A stretch of 48,115 nt of DNA, taken from positions 1 through 48,115 of IMG/VR virus record IMGVR_UViG_3300017788_000037; one strand, given 5' to 3'. The first letter of the stretch is position 1; each line of letters starts with the position of its first letter. This stretch comes from a virus. Positions 30,687-45,416 of the stretch are shown piece by piece. The notes beneath the pieces were generated by a model, which was given only the letters and a program-made list of their open reading frames with translations, made no database searches and was not told the origin of the DNA. The position numbers were made by a program, and so were the translations under genes.

Positions 30687-31382
30687 TTATTTTGTTAGAT
30701 CTTCGTACTCTAGACCCATTCCAATACCAAACCCTGCTTTTTTGGCATTTTGTCCTTGAAGCGCTAAGATATCTCTACTATCACCTGTTGCACCCTTACT
30801 AAAGACCCTGGCCTTCATATCTTCCCATTCTTTTTGTCCTCGTGAAGATCCAGACTGTTTGTCTAAATCTACCCCTTGAATTGCAGCAAGAAACCTTTTT
30901 TCTTCATAGTCAAGTTCTCTGCGACTAGCAAGCGTGGCCATTAATTCTGGCATAGATAAAGACTCTTCTAATTCTTTATAGTCTTTCCAGATACCCAATA
31001 AAAATGCCTCAGCCTCAATTTTTGCTAAGTCTAAATCAGACCAGGTTGATCCACTTTCTGTTGCTTGATTTTTAACAGTTTCTTCTGAACTCTTGTTTAT
31101 CTTAATTCCTGCAGAAACATCTAAAATTGAATATATTGTAGGCATATCAAAACTGTCTTCTATGTCATCTCTTTTTAACATTATGCCTGGATAATATTGT
31201 TTCATGGCAATTCTAACACATTCCATCAAACAGTCTATTGCTTCGTCATCGTCTTTGGCATTTTTTACATTTTCAAAAGCCTCCATGAATTCACGGAGAT
31301 ATTTTATTTTTAATGGAATAATCTCTAGTTCTGTTCCATCAATAAGATTTATTACTTTATTTTGATAAACTGTTGTTGCCAT
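30687..31382 (-). CDS. Tail assembly chaperone, in-frame G-T type fusion
   Basis: 231 aa. Residues 1-95 are the G-like domain shared with the 110-aa paralogue; residues about 114-231 are T-like (DLAKIEAEAFLLGIWKDY, EESLSMPELMATLASRREL, YEEKRFLAAIQGVDLD), as in the extended chaperone of other siphoviruses. In most phages G and GT come from one gene by programmed frameshift; here the fusion is a plain continuous frame. The ATG at 31382 has no Shine-Dalgarno site. A TGATAGAAT box ends 9 nt before it, suggesting a leaderless message. Located between major tail protein and the short paralogue. Confidence 0.8.
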   Translation of the reverse strand: MATTVYQNKVINLIDGTELEIIPLKIKYLREFMEAFENVKNAKDDDEAIDCLMECVRIAMKQYYPGIMLKRDDIEDSFDMPTIYSILDVSAGIKINKSSEETVKNQATESGSTWSDLDLAKIEAEAFLLGIWKDYKELEESLSMPELMATLASRRELDYEEKRFLAAIQGVDLDKQSGSSRGQKEWEDMKARVFSKGATGDSRDILALQGQNAKKAGFGIGMGLEYEDLTK

Positions 31383-35317: not shown

Positions 35318-36469
35318 TTAGGAATCAGCACTGTCTGCGTCAACATAAGCGACGGCATCTAGTTCTTCCCATTGAATACCAAAGCGTACGAATACTGTGT
35401 ATTCAATTGTGTCTTTCTTTGGCTTGTATTCACGGTTTACAGTGATGTCTCTCTGGAAGCCCCATACACGGTTCTGAGGGAATGTTAAATCAACATATCC
35501 TGCAGGGTAGTAAGGAACCTCAAGAACATCTACACCAAGTACACGAGTTGTACGTGAGTTACCTAGTGTCTGCGCTCCACCATCAAGGAATTCTTGACGA
35601 TTTGCTTGTGTGCTACCAACACGATCAGCGAATGCTGATGAGATGGCGTCTGCAAGTGTACCGTTGTTACGAACGATACCAGCAAAAGCATCAGTACCTG
35701 CGTAGAACTTAAGGTTTGACTTAAGTGCACGATACTTGCGAGGCATTGCTAATAGCAAGCCTTGCATTACTGATGTGGTGTAGTTGTTGTCTGCAACAGT
35801 TGCAGCATATTCGTGAGCGTCGTTTCCGACTGTTCCACGAGTTTGCTTGACGAATCCTGCCATAATTGAAAGGAATGCGTCATTACCTGTACCGAGACCG
35901 TTGATAGCAAGATCTTCAATATCGTTTGCGAAAGCATTGGTCATCAAGCGAACTAGATGATCTTCAAGTGCTCCACCTTCAATATTGTCTTCAAGTGCTT
36001 CAGTTGATACTTCCCAATCAAGACGAATCTTTTTGGTTGTTAACTCAACTTTTGAAAATGTTGCGCCGATGTTTGTATAGTCTGGTGCTCCTTGAGCAGC
36101 AGCACGAATTACACGTTCACCTACGTTTACTTTTTCAATTTCCATGGTGTTTGCTCTCATGGTGACACGACGGCCATCTTTAGCGAGGACAGTTGCATCC
36201 CACACGTAGTCAATAAAACGACGTGCTTGCTCAGGGGCTAGAATACCACCTGCAACACCTGTTGGATTTACTGCGTTTGCTCCAGTTGTTGCACCGAAGG
36301 CTGCAGTAGCAGTGTTACCAAGTTGTGAACCTACAGACGCTCCTGCAGAGTCCAGACCTGTTGCACTACCTATACCTCCAGATACTAATGAACCTTCTGA
36401 GTTGATATCACTCGCTGGTGCACTAGAACTTGGATAGTTTTTTTCTATGTTTGTGTTTTGTTCCGACAT
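35318..36469 (-). CDS. Major capsid protein (HK97 fold)
   Basis: 383 aa from ATG 36469 (MSEQNTNIEKN), chosen because AGGAGGTGA lies 6-8 nt upstream; the earlier GTG at 36478 is inside that site. The N-terminal about 75 residues are flexible and Gly/Ser/Ala-rich, then the HK97-type coat follows (APEQARRFIDYVWDATVLA, RLDWEVSTEALEDNIEGGAL, NLKFYAGTDAFAGIVRNNG). Located directly after the protease-scaffold gene, which supports the call. A strong hairpin lies just after the stop and may limit read-through to the neck genes. Confidence 0.9.
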   Translation of the reverse strand: MSEQNTNIEKNYPSSSAPASDINSEGSLVSGGIGSATGLDSAGASVGSQLGNTATAAFGATTGANAVNPTGVAGGILAPEQARRFIDYVWDATVLAKDGRRVTMRANTMEIEKVNVGERVIRAAAQGAPDYTNIGATFSKVELTTKKIRLDWEVSTEALEDNIEGGALEDHLVRLMTNAFANDIEDLAINGLGTGNDAFLSIMAGFVKQTRGTVGNDAHEYAATVADNNYTTSVMQGLLLAMPRKYRALKSNLKFYAGTDAFAGIVRNNGTLADAISSAFADRVGSTQANRQEFLDGGAQTLGNSRTTRVLGVDVLEVPYYPAGYVDLTFPQNRVWGFQRDITVNREYKPKKDTIEYTVFVRFGIQWEELDAVAYVDADSADS

Positions 36470-36496: not shown

Positions 36497-37072
36497 TTAG
36501 TTAAATAGGTCGGTTGATGTGAGGAAACGACCGCCCCATAGGGATTTTTGAACCACTTGTGGTGATTCCTGTACGATCTCGCCTAGATCGCCAGACTTGC
36601 GGAAAGCGGTGTCTTTTTCTACAAGATCTACACGCTTGCCAAACTCGTTAAAGTTGCCCTTAATGCCGTTAACATCTGCTGTTACTGCATCAAGAGATTT
36701 TGTTACTGCTGTTACCTTCTCATTAAGAGATTTGATAGTTGCAGCAAGATCGCCAAAGGCATTAGTAAGAGAAGTATTAATTTCTGAAACTGCTTTAGCA
36801 ACTTCTTCTTTAACGTCTGCAATAGAATTTTCTACTACATTCTCTACCTCAACTGTTGCTGTTGCAACCGAAGAGTCTGCACTAGCATCGTCTGATTTAG
36901 CAATAGCAAGTTCTTCAACTGCTGGTGCCTCTTCAACGACTGCAGGGGTTTCTGTTTCTTCTGCAACAACCTCTGTTGCTGCTTCTGCATTTACCTCTGC
37001 TGGCTGTGCCCCTGGAGCAACCTCTGCATTTTCAACTACAGTTTCTACAACTGCTTCTGTTGATTCTGTCAT
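36497..37072 (-). CDS. Nested scaffolding protein (internal in-frame start)
   Basis: 191 aa, same frame and stop as the protease-scaffold protein, starting at Met254 (MTESTEAVVETVV). An AAGGAGG site lies 8 nt upstream of this ATG, the only strong Shine-Dalgarno seen in this gene, and the protease domain has already ended. Lambda makes its scaffold Nu3 from inside the protease gene C in the same way. This would supply scaffold in excess over protease. Inferred; not proven by sequence alone. Confidence 0.6.
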   Translation of the reverse strand: MTESTEAVVETVVENAEVAPGAQPAEVNAEAATEVVAEETETPAVVEEAPAVEELAIAKSDDASADSSVATATVEVENVVENSIADVKEEVAKAVSEINTSLTNAFGDLAATIKSLNEKVTAVTKSLDAVTADVNGIKGNFNEFGKRVDLVEKDTAFRKSGDLGEIVQESPQVVQKSLWGGRFLTSTDLFN

Positions 37073-37831
37073 TAGATTTACCTCCTTAGTAATCTTAATT
37101 GCATTAATGCCTTTAGCACTATCAACTAAGAATTTTATCATTTCTGCATTATCTTTATCGTTCTTTTCTATAAAACCAATGTTTTGCATTTTGTTTCCAG
37201 TTATTGGACTTGTTACTGAGTCAGAATCTGAAACCATAATGATGCCGTTTTCTGAATCCCAAAATACGTTTTCAATTTCTGTTTTTGACAAATAGCCATC
37301 TACAACATTTTGTCCATTTACCTTTTCAATAGAAACAATGTTTGCAAATTGATTTGCTGGATTATCTACAAGAGATAATTCATATAATTCGTATGTTTTA
37401 ATTACACGGATTGTTTTATCAATTTTTTCGTCATAGGCATCATCCCAAGTCTTAATGTTGCCACCAATTGAAAACCCAGTGTACGTTCCGTCTAAAACCT
37501 TTTCCCAGGCGTCTTGTGCACCCTTAGAAACATAGGCGGATACATAAACTCCGCTATAAAATTTTTTGTCATTTGGATCAAAATACTTGTCCTCTTTAAA
37601 AGAAACAATCTTTCCTACAGCGCTTGGCTGGTGCATTTCACGAAGATTACCACGAAAATTTTTAAAAGCCTCTATGCTAGACTCTGTGGTTACAATATCT
37701 CCTTGCTTATCAATATTGTCAAGGGTTGCAAAACCAGACACCATACGGCGTTCAACATCTATCTTTCCAATGGGCATTGAAAGGCGAACATTGTCACCTT
37801 TAGTTTCCCAATGAGCCTTGTTTATTAACAT
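36497..37831 (-). CDS. Prohead protease fused to scaffold
   Basis: 444 aa. Residues about 15-170 are a S78/XkdF-like prohead protease: candidate H67 (REMHQPSAVGK), S121 (YTGFSIGGNIK) and E151 or D156 (ELYELSLVDNPAN) form the catalytic set. Residues about 250-335 are acidic, Ala/Val/Glu-rich and low complexity; about 335-444 are coiled coil (TSLTNAFGDLAATIKSLNEK), typical of scaffolding. The whole protein would drive capsid assembly and then maturation. ATG 37831 lacks a Shine-Dalgarno site, and a TGCTATAAT box ends 9 nt upstream. An internal start at 37072 is likely (separate entry). Confidence 0.85.
   Translation of the reverse strand: MLINKAHWETKGDNVRLSMPIGKIDVERRMVSGFATLDNIDKQGDIVTTESSIEAFKNFRGNLREMHQPSAVGKIVSFKEDKYFDPNDKKFYSGVYVSAYVSKGAQDAWEKVLDGTYTGFSIGGNIKTWDDAYDEKIDKTIRVIKTYELYELSLVDNPANQFANIVSIEKVNGQNVVDGYLSKTEIENVFWDSENGIIMVSDSDSVTSPITGNKMQNIGFIEKNDKDNAEMIKFLVDSAKGINAIKITKEVNLMTESTEAVVETVVENAEVAPGAQPAEVNAEAATEVVAEETETPAVVEEAPAVEELAIAKSDDASADSSVATATVEVENVVENSIADVKEEVAKAVSEINTSLTNAFGDLAATIKSLNEKVTAVTKSLDAVTADVNGIKGNFNEFGKRVDLVEKDTAFRKSGDLGEIVQESPQVVQKSLWGGRFLTSTDLFN
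37072..37086 (-). promoter_or_regulatory. Internal ribosome-binding site for nested scaffold
   Basis: AAGGAGG followed after 8 nt by ATG at 37072, read on the minus strand inside the protease-scaffold gene. A perfect anti-SD match, unlike the full-length start of the same gene, which has none. Confidence 0.6.
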
Positions 37832-37840
37832 AACGTTATA

Positions 37841-37849
37841 ATTATAGCA
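37841..37849 (-). promoter_or_regulatory. Extended -10 promoter box (TGCTATAAT)
   Basis: Ends 9 nt before the protease ATG at 37831, with no Shine-Dalgarno between. Fits a leaderless head-operon transcript. Confidence 0.5.
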
Positions 37850-37871
37850 CTGGTTTATATAGTTTTCTCAA

Positions 37872-39479
37872 CTATTGAGACGATCTTCCTTCACCCTGTG
37901 GATTACGACCAGAGACAGTGGTTGGTGAGTCAGAGTTATTATTTGTTCTTTCTGAATCCCTTTGACGAGTCCCCGCTAAATTTGCCCTGGCATCGGTTGC
38001 CTGTCTTGGAGACATAACAAATGGATCATCGCCATCTGCTCTTTGTGGCAAGTCTAATTTTTCACGAGCCTCGTTTGGCGTCATAACCTGTGTTTTTACA
38101 TATCTTTCAATAATTTGAGACTGTGCGATTTCATCAGTCAGGGTTAACTCATTAAACTTTAGTTCAAGAACGTCTGTTTTTTCTCTAATAATCTTATTTA
38201 CCACTTTTTCTAAATGTCTTTGCGCTGGACGAGATACCTGCTCTTTAAATGTACGATCTTGAGAAAGTGCTGCTGCAACTCCTGAAGAATCTGCACCACC
38301 TAACTTTGAAATAGGAACTTGATGAGCAATTAAAATATCATCACGATTTTGTTTGCGGTATTCTTTAAATGAACCGTCCTGGATACCATTTTCAATTGGC
38401 TCCATCTTAAACTCAACTTTATTTCCCTCTGTATCTCCAGGAAGTGGAATATATAGGGTTCTGTGTGATTGAGCCTTAAGGCCAGTCTGCAGAAACCTAA
38501 ACATTTTATCTTCAGCGTCACCCGATAGTTTTGCACCCTTTAGTGTTACCACATATCTTGGAACTGCTTTGTTTTCAAAATAGTCAATATTATATTGAGA
38601 TGCTAACTGATCCCCAATTAAAGATGGCATTGCTGCAATAATGTCTGGAATTCCATAAAATGTATTTAAAGGGGAATACTCTTTAAGATGAATGATTTCA
38701 TTTGGCCTTGGGTCTGTGCCCATAGGATTTGCATTTTTTGCTCCAAAGTTTCTAAAATAAACCACCTTTTGGCCAATAATTTGAATAAAGCCGTCACGCA
38801 AACGGCGCACACGAACAGTCGTTGCTGGAATATGTCCAACGTAGCCAATATCTCCAGCCACTGTTCTGCCTATTTCAATAAATCCATTACCTGTTGCCTG
38901 AAGATCTGTATAAACCTTTTCCATAGTTTTTGTAAAACTGTCATCGTCGTTTAAATTTTCTAGCCAATCACGTAACTGTATCTTTGCTCTTTCAATGCGA
39001 TTACGAGCACGATCTACTGCTGCCTGATCCTCATTCATTTCAAACCTCAACATAGTCCTATCTGAAACATCAAAACGATATCCAAGGCCAACTACGTTCT
39101 CTACCTTGGCGTCAATAGCAGCGTGATTGGCAAATGATGTGTCATAGAAGTTTGCTAATTCATACATGTTGTATGGAGGAGTAATTACATCAAATAGTCC
39201 ATATCCATTTCTGTATACCGTGCCAGGATTAATGGCTTTTGATGAAGCGTCTACCCCTGAAGGTGTAACATTTGCTGCATTTAAATATGCCTGATTCGTT
39301 TCTGGACTAATATATTTTGATAAATTACGGGTTGTTCTGCGACGAAAATTTTGATCTAGTCCAGAATAATCTTTTAAATCTTCCCAACTCTTATTAAATG
39401 GATCTTGATTTTTAAAAGGGCTTTCTTCTTTGTCTTGCGTATTAAGCCCTGCACGAATGTACTCTTGCTCATCACTCAT
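37872..39479 (-). CDS. Portal protein
   Basis: 535 aa. Dodecameric ring at the packaging vertex. The sequence fits HK97/PBSX-type portals: an N-terminal region, a wing/stem core (MYELANFYDTSFANHAAIDA, NEIIHLKEYSPLNTFYGIPD, QYNIDYFENKAVPRYVVTLK), then a Pro/Gly/Ser-rich C-terminus. The start has AAAGGA upstream and overlaps the previous gene by 8 nt. It precedes the protease-scaffold and capsid genes. A TCTCAA-TTGAGA inverted repeat sits on its stop codon. Confidence 0.9.
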   Translation of the reverse strand: MSDEQEYIRAGLNTQDKEESPFKNQDPFNKSWEDLKDYSGLDQNFRRRTTRNLSKYISPETNQAYLNAANVTPSGVDASSKAINPGTVYRNGYGLFDVITPPYNMYELANFYDTSFANHAAIDAKVENVVGLGYRFDVSDRTMLRFEMNEDQAAVDRARNRIERAKIQLRDWLENLNDDDSFTKTMEKVYTDLQATGNGFIEIGRTVAGDIGYVGHIPATTVRVRRLRDGFIQIIGQKVVYFRNFGAKNANPMGTDPRPNEIIHLKEYSPLNTFYGIPDIIAAMPSLIGDQLASQYNIDYFENKAVPRYVVTLKGAKLSGDAEDKMFRFLQTGLKAQSHRTLYIPLPGDTEGNKVEFKMEPIENGIQDGSFKEYRKQNRDDILIAHQVPISKLGGADSSGVAAALSQDRTFKEQVSRPAQRHLEKVVNKIIREKTDVLELKFNELTLTDEIAQSQIIERYVKTQVMTPNEAREKLDLPQRADGDDPFVMSPRQATDARANLAGTRQRDSERTNNNSDSPTTVSGRNPQGEGRSSQ

Positions 39480-39867
39480 TTATGGCATCCTTTCCATACT
39501 TATCTAATGTTTGTTGTGCTGCATGCCAGGCGCCTAAATCATTCATTGAAGGAATTAGCCCTTCCTTCATTCTTTCTTTTTGCTCAGAATACTCTTCCTC
39601 ACTGATTCTGGTAAGACCAGGAACAAAAATTGCCTTGCCCTCTCCGTCATCCCCATAATGCATGGCGGCCTCTCTTAATTGAGAAATCTTGAACAGGTCA
39701 CCACGATCGGAAGGAATATTTAAAATTGAGCCAGTGTCATCTGTAAACCATTTTCCATTGGACTTCTTATATACGTAAAGACCCCAGTCATATTGCTTAT
39801 CTATTACCTTACGACGAACATTTTGTACATAGGGCTTACCAGTTTTTGGGTTTATTAGTGATTCCAT
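39472..39867 (-). CDS. Small protein preceding the portal
   Basis: 131 aa from ATG 39867 (MESLINPKTGKPYVQNV); a GTG two codons upstream is also possible. Hydrophilic, mixed charge (KSNGKWFTDDTGSILNI, SEEEYSEQKERMKEG). It overlaps the portal gene by 8 nt, so the products are probably co-translated; it may be a minor head component. There is no Shine-Dalgarno site and a TGCTATACT box ends 7 nt upstream, pointing to a leaderless message. Family not recognised. Confidence 0.65.
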   Translation of the reverse strand: MESLINPKTGKPYVQNVRRKVIDKQYDWGLYVYKKSNGKWFTDDTGSILNIPSDRGDLFKISQLREAAMHYGDDGEGKAIFVPGLTRISEEEYSEQKERMKEGLIPSMNDLGAWHAAQQTLDKYGKDAINE

Positions 39868-39874
39868 AACCACA

Positions 39875-43385: not shown

Positions 43386-45416
43386 CTAATATAATTTAAT
43401 TTCACATGCGTCTGTTGAGCAGTATTTTTCGGACTCAGCATCAAGGTTATCTTTGCCATCATAGATGGCAGACCAATCAATTTTGCCAATTGTTCCGACA
43501 TAAGAGTTATATTCTTCTCTTGTTATTTGAGTATATGGCTGTTGCGGGTATGTTTGATTGCCCATTGGTAAAAATGACACTGCCTTAAGTTGACCCTCGT
43601 GCATGTGAAGTGCTGGAGCAATATGCTTAGACTCTGATTCTTTGTCAAATGAAAGCGTTACAGATACACCATTGTCAGACCAATACTTTTGGGCAGTAGC
43701 AGCCAAACCAATTTTTTCAAAAAGACTTACATCTTTCTCAGATCTTGGATGTCCAGATGCTACAGGGAAATATACTACTGAAGTGTTTGCGGATACTACA
43801 TCATCTTCAATTTTATACCCTGCTGCTTTAAACAAATGAAGCATTGGATCTGTATTGCCAAACCTAATAGCACGAAGATAAAATGCTCCTCCAGGACCCC
43901 AGTGAACTCCAGGCGTTGCGCCAGAAAGTAGGGATACAGAGCCAGAAGGCTTGACGGTAGTTACACGAATTGACTCACGCACACATAGCCACTCTGAATA
44001 TGTGTGATCATATGAACGAATCTTCTTATACCCCTCGTCCATCCAATTACGAACTGTTGGCATACCTTTTGTATCTGCAAATGATGCAATACCTGTTAAA
44101 GATGTTCCAATGCGACGATTACGTTGCATAATTCCATTTGTGGCTTGCCAGTGTGTTGGCATTAATGTAACAGTTTTGCCATATAAATATGCAAACTTTA
44201 GTGTACGAAGAAAATCTTCTTTGTCTTCGTGACGATTTAAATGAACTTCCACAAGAGTACATAATTCATAAGACTCTAGTGGTTGTTCGGCGCATGGATT
44301 AAAACCCATGACACGAGAATCTTTATAGTCTGGAGCATCTGCTAGTCTGCCGTAGTTTCTAGCAACATCTAGCCAAATAAATCCTGGCTCACCATTGTCT
44401 GCAATCAAGTCTACGTAATCTTCATACTTAGTTCCAACCTCAGCAGCGATTGAGTTATTGCTCATCCATGCCCAACCTGGTTTTTCTGAATCAAAAGAGT
44501 TTCTGTCTGGAAAAACCTCTGCATTTTTTAAATTAATAAAATCATTGTCTCCTGGCAGCCCTAAAGCCAAGGTCGCAGAACGACGAACATTTCCAGAAAC
44601 AACGCATGTGCCAATAAGGTTAACAATATCTACTATTGCTCTAGAGTCAAGTTTTTCTCCTGCTCTACCGCCAATTACTCCATCTATCTTATTGTGTAGT
44701 GCAATGAGTGGTGCTGGACCGCTGGCGACCCCTCCAAAGCCTTTTATGGGGGCACCTAGGGGACGAATAAGATCATAACTAAACTTCTGTATGGCCTGAT
44801 TGGGGCGTAGGTATGAGTTTAATAGCATTCTTACAGAGTCTACCCAACCTTCACGAGTGTCTGGAATTTCCCATACATTTTCTGGCTCTGTTGGAGCATA
44901 TATGGTCATCTCTTTGTCTTGACCGATAGTGTCAAACCCTACACCTATACCAAGCATTAAGGCATCCATAACCCATGCAAATAAGGCTCCTGGGTCATTA
45001 CGATCAAGGTCACGAGTAGAAACCATGGCACAATTTTGTAAGGAAGCAGAGTTACGCCTTTCCATAGTCATAGGGGTTCCAAATGCCCATAGACCACGGC
45101 CTGGGGGAGTCCACTTTAAGTTAAACATGCGGTCATAGGCTTCTTGAGCAGACTTTTGGGCTTTGTTGTCATTCCATGGTAGTCTGTTGTCTTTAGCGTG
45201 ATTTTTTTGTACAGAGTACATTCCTTCAATTACCCGCTTGCAAACCTCATGCCATCTTTCCTTTGTACCATCCTCTTTCATGCGAGAGTATGTACGTATA
45301 AAAGTAATTTCACCCAGTGAGTTAGAGCCTGCGTCTGTAAAACCAAAAGGCGATGAGACTCCAATATACTTGTTTACGAATTCATCTGTTAAACGAAAAG
45401 AAAAGATATCTGACAC
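43386..45416 (-). CDS. nrdJ: Class II (adenosylcobalamin-dependent) ribonucleotide reductase
   Basis: 676 aa. Makes deoxyribonucleotides for phage DNA synthesis using B12, as in the monomeric Lactobacillus-type enzyme. All key residues are visible: redox pair C129 and C386, N373, thiyl-radical C375 and E377 (FNPCAEQ), and the C-terminal shuttle pair C666 and C671 (CSTDAC). The spacing of C375-C386 and of C666-C671 equals that of the L. leichmannii enzyme. Also VTTVKPSGSVSLLSG and a conserved KNAEVFP segment. GTG start at 45416 with a weak site. It needs host cobalamin, so the host likely makes or imports it. The gene is shorter than class II enzymes with extra N-terminal domains. Confidence 0.93.
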   Translation of the reverse strand: MSDIFSFRLTDEFVNKYIGVSSPFGFTDAGSNSLGEITFIRTYSRMKEDGTKERWHEVCKRVIEGMYSVQKNHAKDNRLPWNDNKAQKSAQEAYDRMFNLKWTPPGRGLWAFGTPMTMERRNSASLQNCAMVSTRDLDRNDPGALFAWVMDALMLGIGVGFDTIGQDKEMTIYAPTEPENVWEIPDTREGWVDSVRMLLNSYLRPNQAIQKFSYDLIRPLGAPIKGFGGVASGPAPLIALHNKIDGVIGGRAGEKLDSRAIVDIVNLIGTCVVSGNVRRSATLALGLPGDNDFINLKNAEVFPDRNSFDSEKPGWAWMSNNSIAAEVGTKYEDYVDLIADNGEPGFIWLDVARNYGRLADAPDYKDSRVMGFNPCAEQPLESYELCTLVEVHLNRHEDKEDFLRTLKFAYLYGKTVTLMPTHWQATNGIMQRNRRIGTSLTGIASFADTKGMPTVRNWMDEGYKKIRSYDHTYSEWLCVRESIRVTTVKPSGSVSLLSGATPGVHWGPGGAFYLRAIRFGNTDPMLHLFKAAGYKIEDDVVSANTSVVYFPVASGHPRSEKDVSLFEKIGLAATAQKYWSDNGVSVTLSFDKESESKHIAPALHMHEGQLKAVSFLPMGNQTYPQQPYTQITREEYNSYVGTIGKIDWSAIYDGKDNLDAESEKYCSTDACEIKLY

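Follow-up and report, generated by a model that had tools for sequence, protein, structure and literature searches.

Phage scaffolds are typically encoded between the genes for the portal and the major capsid protein (MCP) and feature an acidic linker, a long helix and a short conserved C-terminus. In herpesviruses, the scaffold encoded by UL26.5 is the in-frame 3' part of the protease gene UL26 and is made in excess from a separate internal promoter. Leaderless initiation of translation is common in Actinobacteria. Phages lambda and P2 use one gene for protease and scaffold (PMC8508860), the lambda protease gpC being assigned to family S49 in the accessible part of PMC10695390. In HK97, the prohead protease gene resides directly before the capsid gene (PMC8508860), and the capsid protein supplies the scaffold as its own N-terminal domain, as stated in the accessible text of PMC10275583. 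In leaderless genes of Actinobacteria, a TANNNT hexamer has its first T some 12 bp ahead of the start and a Shine-Dalgarno (SD) sequence is lacking, according to those sections of PMC3160421 that were available. In the literature covered, mostly outside subscription journals and including the accessible part of PMC12749128, we found no report of a nested scaffold in the protease family treated below.

The locus analyzed here probably represents a nested scaffold of the lambda C/Nu3 type in another protease family, with a leaderless protease-scaffold fusion and an SD-driven scaffold read from one frame; we assign this reading a probability of about 0.86. The gene in question is situated between the portal and MCP genes (Table 1) in a window (the whole stretch of 48,115 nucleotides that was analyzed) whose source record is classed as a virus contig. 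Of the 17 isolate loci fetched, 15 came with annotation and two without. The gene takes the same position in all 15 annotated records, the coding sequence after the protease is a capsid or virion structural protein in each of them, and in none of the fetched stretches is a scaffold annotated between protease and MCP. The 444-aa ORF matches the head maturation protease family phrog_9427 over residues 2-441 (E 1.7e-115) and, within residues 23-166, PF14550 (Peptidase_S78_2; 27.1 bits, cutoff 24) and PF04586 (Peptidase_S78; 26.0 bits, cutoff 21). The Pfam test returned these S78_2 and S78 matches and none to S49 and thus gives no indication of homology with lambda gpC. H67 and S121, which we take to be the active-site His and Ser of an S78 protease, are invariant across 66 sequences. 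By these matches, the ORF is an S78/XkdF-type head-maturation protease with an acidic, helical C-terminal half. The isolates nearest to the full gene have Streptomyces and Rhodococcus as hosts, and an Actinomycetota MAG holds a 60%-identical copy; an actinobacterial host is therefore likely for the virus in the window. A gene for a B12-dependent ribonucleotide reductase (43386-45416, minus strand) is present among the structural genes of the window.

Table 1. Features at the protease-scaffold locus, with positions in the window.
Feature	Position	Strand	Remarks
Full-length protease-scaffold fusion (putative)	36497..37831	-	ORF of 444 aa, ATG; phrog_9427, Pfam S78
Serine protease domain	37364..37765	-	About residues 23-156 (Pfam); beta-rich, pLDDT ~70-90 in the AlphaFold2 model
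Putative nested scaffold ORF	36497..37072	-	191 aa; acidic and disordered at first, then a helix of ~80 residues and a conserved motif at the C-terminus
MCP	35318..36469	-	phrog_1623 and phrog_10 (query from 36460); ATG 36469, SD AGGAGGTGA
Portal protein, upstream neighbour	37872..39479	-	Phage_portal PF04860, E 7.4e-31
Full-length start ATG, no SD	37829..37831	-	Longest SD run 3 nt
Candidate -10 hexamer TATAAT after TGC (extended -10, TGCTATAAT)	37841..37846	-	Ends 9 nt before ATG
Possible -35 TTGAGA, tentative	37866..37871	-	19-nt spacer; directly after portal stop codon
Predicted RNA hairpin	37093..37131	-	39 nt; stems of 9 and 7 bp, AAA loop; immediately before internal SD
Internal SD AAGGAGGT	37080..37087	-	7 nt before in-frame ATG 37072-37070

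An AlphaFold2 model of the full-length protein, built with 66 sequences and of moderate quality (mean pLDDT 67, pTM 0.38), shows a protease region rich in beta structure, then a short helix and a stretch without order (residues 246-336), then one helix over residues 333-413 and a last, short one at the C-terminus. In the model, the disordered linker has pLDDT values below 50 and holds M254, the residue with which the nested product would start. At the C-terminus, a KSxWGGxFL motif is well conserved. A fold search of the PDB gave no match at E 0.001, a sequence search of the PDB mostly returned coiled-coil proteins, and fold matches in BFVD are mainly prohead proteases. The acidic linker, long helix and short conserved tail of the model would suit a capsid scaffold, which we regard as the probable function. 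In isolate relatives, a small domain before the linker contains three cysteines (C then CxxC) in a zinc-ribbon-like arrangement; all three are lost in the window (37166-37270, minus strand).

The original prediction had placed an AAGGAGG before an in-frame ATG at 37072, opening a frame for a 191-aa product, and this proved exact to the base. The minus strand has ACT AAG GAG GTA AAT CTA ATG here, and the SD run of 8 nt is surpassed only by that of the MCP gene (9 nt) in a survey of 29 chosen ORFs of the window. The site had been expected to persist in close relatives, and all 80 that were compared, i.e. the best 80 of 598 from one scan, agree with the window in the SD bases, in the codon at which these lie and in the position of the ATG. 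Among relatives below 95% nucleotide identity (29 sequences left after removal of near-duplicates at this threshold from 70 complete genes of 81), the SD codons are invariant (AAG 29/29, GAG 29/29); across the same genes, AAG makes up 42% of the Lys codons and GAG 27% of the Glu codons. All 17 isolate loci, from Streptomyces and Rhodococcus phages, exhibit GGAGG at this domain boundary, followed by ATG or GTG in frame. The codon register is GAA GGA GGT in most isolates as opposed to AAG GAG G in the window, and GTG serves as the internal start codon in many isolates and often in distant relatives. Two further scans yielded 158 distant loci, not all of them independent, with some contigs fetched twice, and the site is found in 156 (148 by automatic search and eight of the remaining ten on inspection). 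The exceptions are L132, in which the SD is degraded (GAAGGGGG), and L216, which is devoid of the site and cut by the contig end. In the latter (L216:3001-4051), the protease is followed by an unrelated tail, with neither SD nor scaffold before the contig ends. Within the 660-960 nt stretch, GGAGG plus an in-frame ATG or GTG occurs in 240 of 248 genes as compared with 11.6% of synonymous-codon shuffles, a comparison limited to those of the 250 genes that reach 960 nt; within the 60-660 nt stretch, the same pattern occurs in a single gene out of 250. As the same bases are kept in different codon registers and before ATG as well as GTG, selection acts on nucleotides. This matches selection for a ribosome site and not amino-acid conservation, and the internal start site is more than chance. 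No comparable boundary site is present in more distant S78-like proteases from other genomes (L379-L386), and the internal start therefore marks this protease family and not the S78 fold. One in-frame stop codon interrupts the protease part in L189, and in L234 another separates the protease from the internal SD; the nested scaffold frame stays open in both, and either a sequencing error or a real variant may be involved.

Just as foreseen, the full-length start lacks an SD, the longest run comprising 3 nt in the window and at most 4 nt in 103 of 106 non-redundant genes, 104 of which start with ATG. These 106 are the genes with enough upstream sequence among 111 non-redundant ones (88% nucleotide identity), drawn in turn from the 244 of 250 genes in which a script had found the internal site. 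A TANNNT hexamer (at least 4 of 6 matches) ends 6-11 nt before the full-length start in 100 of the 106 genes, and several of the six starts without it are wrongly called (L218, L228, L235 and the annotated start of L089). At MCP starts, which served as a control, the hexamer is absent from the searched stretch in 65 of 101 cases. In the window, the candidate promoter fits into the 40-nt gap behind the portal stop codon. A -35 motif of the TTGAGA type also occurs in most close relatives, and its assignment is tentative because the 19-nt spacer exceeds the usual 16-18 nt. Counted from its first T, the hexamer is mostly at distance 12-13 in isolates and in the group with GAA-GGA-GGT and mostly at distance 15 in the window's clade. 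The -10 distance, the missing SD and the ATG fit a full-length start that would be leaderless or nearly so. In the window's clade, 9 nt separate the end of the -10 from the ATG. This is a little far for a strictly leaderless start, so that transcripts there may carry between 0 and about 3 nt ahead of the ATG. The difference in signals between the two starts, leaderless for one and SD for the other, had been part of the original prediction and holds across the non-redundant relatives. Both starts, their conservation, their opposite signals and the order of the domains are directly observed.

For two Rhodococcus phages, Trina and Grayson (L088:2480-2491; L089:2477-2485), the protease start given in the record precedes the ATG homologous to that of the window and either overlaps the likely -10 hexamer or adjoins it. 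Translation probably begins at Met5 of the annotated protein in Trina and at Met4 in Grayson. A further gene that looks leaderless is the small one preceding the portal gene: TGCTATACT (39867-39873, minus strand) ends 7 nt before an ATG that sits two codons after the first GTG of this gene. In the gene at 30687-31382, TAGAAT is found 9 nt before the ATG.

The hairpin in front of the internal SD is an addition to the original prediction, which did not mention it. Its folding z is -2.4 in the window relative to dinucleotide shuffles and ranges from -2.4 to -3.0 in all four clade members tested. All 39 distinct relatives retain the ten core pairs, in which substitutions do no more than exchange G-U, G-C and A-U for one another; pairs outside the core are broken in some of these sequences, and two-sided changes at core pairs occur in none of the 39. 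Kept pairing, wobble-type changes and folding energy thus argue for the hairpin, and covariation gives no proof. In the window's clade, synonymous diversity (observed/expected) reaches its minimum for the gene, 0.068, at codons 231-245 just before the SD and is mostly about 0.6-0.85 in the protease half. An exact match to 27 bases of the hairpin is present in at least 120 viral stretches. In 80 of 80 that were fetched, SD and start follow immediately; 77 have protease motifs upstream and three are on short contigs, in which upstream motifs are uncheckable. When synonymous shuffles are taken as the reference, the strongest folding signal in the gene stems from the 54 nt ending exactly at the SD, mean Z being -2.77 for the hairpin group (n=53) and -1.70 for a second large group with unrelated upstream sequence (n=52). 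In this second group, the windows that first cover SD and start show no structure (Z +0.4 to +0.8), and a 5-bp stem, GCCUG/CAGGC, is kept before the SD in 33-35 of 35 rows of an alignment that comprises 35 of the 52 members and in which the single double change comes from a doubtful row (L255). The accessibility of the SD amounts to 0.70 in the second group versus 0.53 with resampled upstream codons (42 of 52 above the null median) and is hardly higher than the null in the window's clade (0.50 versus 0.47, n=53). The hairpin is a conserved element, and its most likely role may lie in keeping the SD clear of upstream pairing, an idea that is weak for the window's clade because accessibility there hardly exceeds the null. 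The folding signal is absent in the isolates Samisti12 and Trina and weak in Karp; the structured element is therefore not universal. A search for known structured RNA families in the window gave no Rfam 15 match at the gathering threshold. Programmed frameshifting at the hairpin was considered and left aside, since the fusion needs no change of frame and inspection by eye showed no slippery site that recurs consistently.

For a given amino acid, the codons chosen downstream of the internal start resemble those of the MCP gene more closely than the codons upstream of it do (47 of 53 genes in one set, 45 of 52 in another). Such a step would be expected if the scaffold half were translated more and may be taken as an indirect sign of this; as evidence, codon usage and SD strength are both indirect. 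Synonymous diversity is 0.71 for the portal gene (n=26 sequences), 0.75 for the protease part (n=29), 0.295 for the scaffold part (n=29) and 0.57 for the capsid gene (n=22), i.e. the scaffold half (36497-37072, minus strand) has the lowest value of the four while being the most divergent in amino acids. This low value may in part reflect low-complexity repeats or recombination. As synonymous diversity is low across the whole scaffold half, part of the conservation there is not start-specific.

A separate C-terminal protein could also be obtained by proteolysis alone, the full-length protein being cut at the domain boundary and AAGGAGG being incidental. The boundary is a disordered linker in the AlphaFold2 model and proteases of this kind often cut themselves, but neither the keeping of AAGGAGG and an in-frame start at the nucleotide level across codon registers nor the step in codon usage would be explained. 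We consider proteolysis as the only route very unlikely; self-cutting could occur besides internal initiation. An internal promoter specific for the scaffold, similar to that of UL26.5, would turn the conserved block into TTGATA-16-TACAAT and place the SD in the leader of the resulting transcript. Many relatives indeed have near-consensus hexamers at 16-nt spacing, and the block is invariant at synonymous sites. However, only 17 of 53 non-redundant clade members have TACAAT (the window has TGCAAT), TTGATA is missing in ten of the 53, sequence variation follows the hairpin, a promoter scan gave no site there on the minus strand, and the fetched isolates lack such a block. With hexamers that are not kept across the window's clade, we rejected this highly improbable explanation.

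The conserved block might alternatively be caused by a 232-aa antisense gene on the plus strand (36597-37295) that overlaps the locus, spanning scaffold and hairpin. While the respective phase is open over the site for a median of 609 nt in the clade, synonymous shuffles are equally open (null median 567 nt, mean rank 0.54); the antisense ORF is therefore probably a matter of composition, and a gene at this place is scarcely credible. It is also conceivable that the C-terminal product is made and acts as an internal head protein or protease regulator instead of a scaffold, a view with which the lack of a structural match to any known scaffold in PDB searches agrees. Against it stand the position between portal and MCP and the succession of acidic linker, long helix and short conserved C-terminus, all typical of scaffolds, as well as the annotated neighbourhoods, in all 15 of which a further scaffold is missing from the annotation. 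We deem such a function unlikely.

For the favored reading, a nested scaffold with two modes of initiation, we infer from the features of the locus that both proteins are produced, and likewise their ratio, the scaffold function and the leaderless initiation. A promoter located in the 40 nt between portal and protease genes would set the 5' end of the transcript at the protease ATG or within about 3 nt of it, and the fusion, devoid of an SD, would be read by leaderless initiation. The 191-aa scaffold would be initiated at the internal ATG by its strong SD, and because of this SD any transcript across the region, whether from the gene's own promoter or from upstream read-through, would give scaffold. 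Protease would arise only from the transcript begun at the promoter; read-through from the portal gene offers no SD for the fusion and would yield scaffold only. The outcome would be many scaffold molecules and few protease fusions. Via the shared C-terminal helix and tail the protease would be carried into the procapsid, and it would later remove the scaffold. More tentatively, the pair of leaderless start and internal SD may constitute a dosage device, in which protease comes solely from transcripts whose first base is that of its ATG, scaffold comes from all that cross the region, the structured element tunes or gates the second start and the ratio of protease to scaffold is set; we find this possible and rather doubtful. 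Such control might come, for instance, from a protein, from processing of the mRNA or from a response to free scaffold.

If correct, our proposal provides a candidate for the missing scaffold of Stanwilliamsviridae-type Streptomyces phages, of the Rhodococcus phages Trina and Grayson and of a very common environmental phage group; records of such phages annotate the protease alone (15 annotated isolate records). The nested protease-scaffold solution would then appear in a second protease family. Furthermore, the locus would offer a natural, conserved example of one frame that combines a leaderless start with an SD start, and the use of this pair is testable in laboratory Streptomyces. Should the dosage reading be true, we would be dealing with a phage control that sets the protease:scaffold ratio by two initiation modes in one frame.

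Among the known systems, lambda C/Nu3 shares with this locus a protease followed by a C-terminal scaffold in one frame, located between the portal and capsid genes. It differs in protease family, which is S78/XkdF here and, as far as the accessible text goes, S49 for lambda gpC. The gene described here is further characterized by a fusion without SD, a -10 beside the ATG and a hairpin before the internal SD. The window gene may thus work like lambda C/Nu3 while being non-homologous by the Pfam test, and the parallel drawn in the original prediction is sound as an analogy: protease and scaffold share one gene, and the protease family is a different one. P2 gpO likewise combines protease and scaffold in one gene. 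The herpesvirus pair UL26/UL26.5 resembles the locus in its in-frame 3' scaffold made in excess, an excess that is predicted here; UL26.5 depends on an internal promoter, whereas our locus has an internal ribosome site and no consistent internal promoter. With HK97, it has the protease gene directly before the capsid gene in common, but the scaffold is part of the capsid protein in HK97, according to the accessible text, and part of the protease gene here. The leaderless genes of Actinobacteria, as described in the available sections, are similar in having TANNNT near the start and no SD; in our case, in contrast, such a start is paired in frame with a strong SD start, and the pair is conserved in a phage structural gene.
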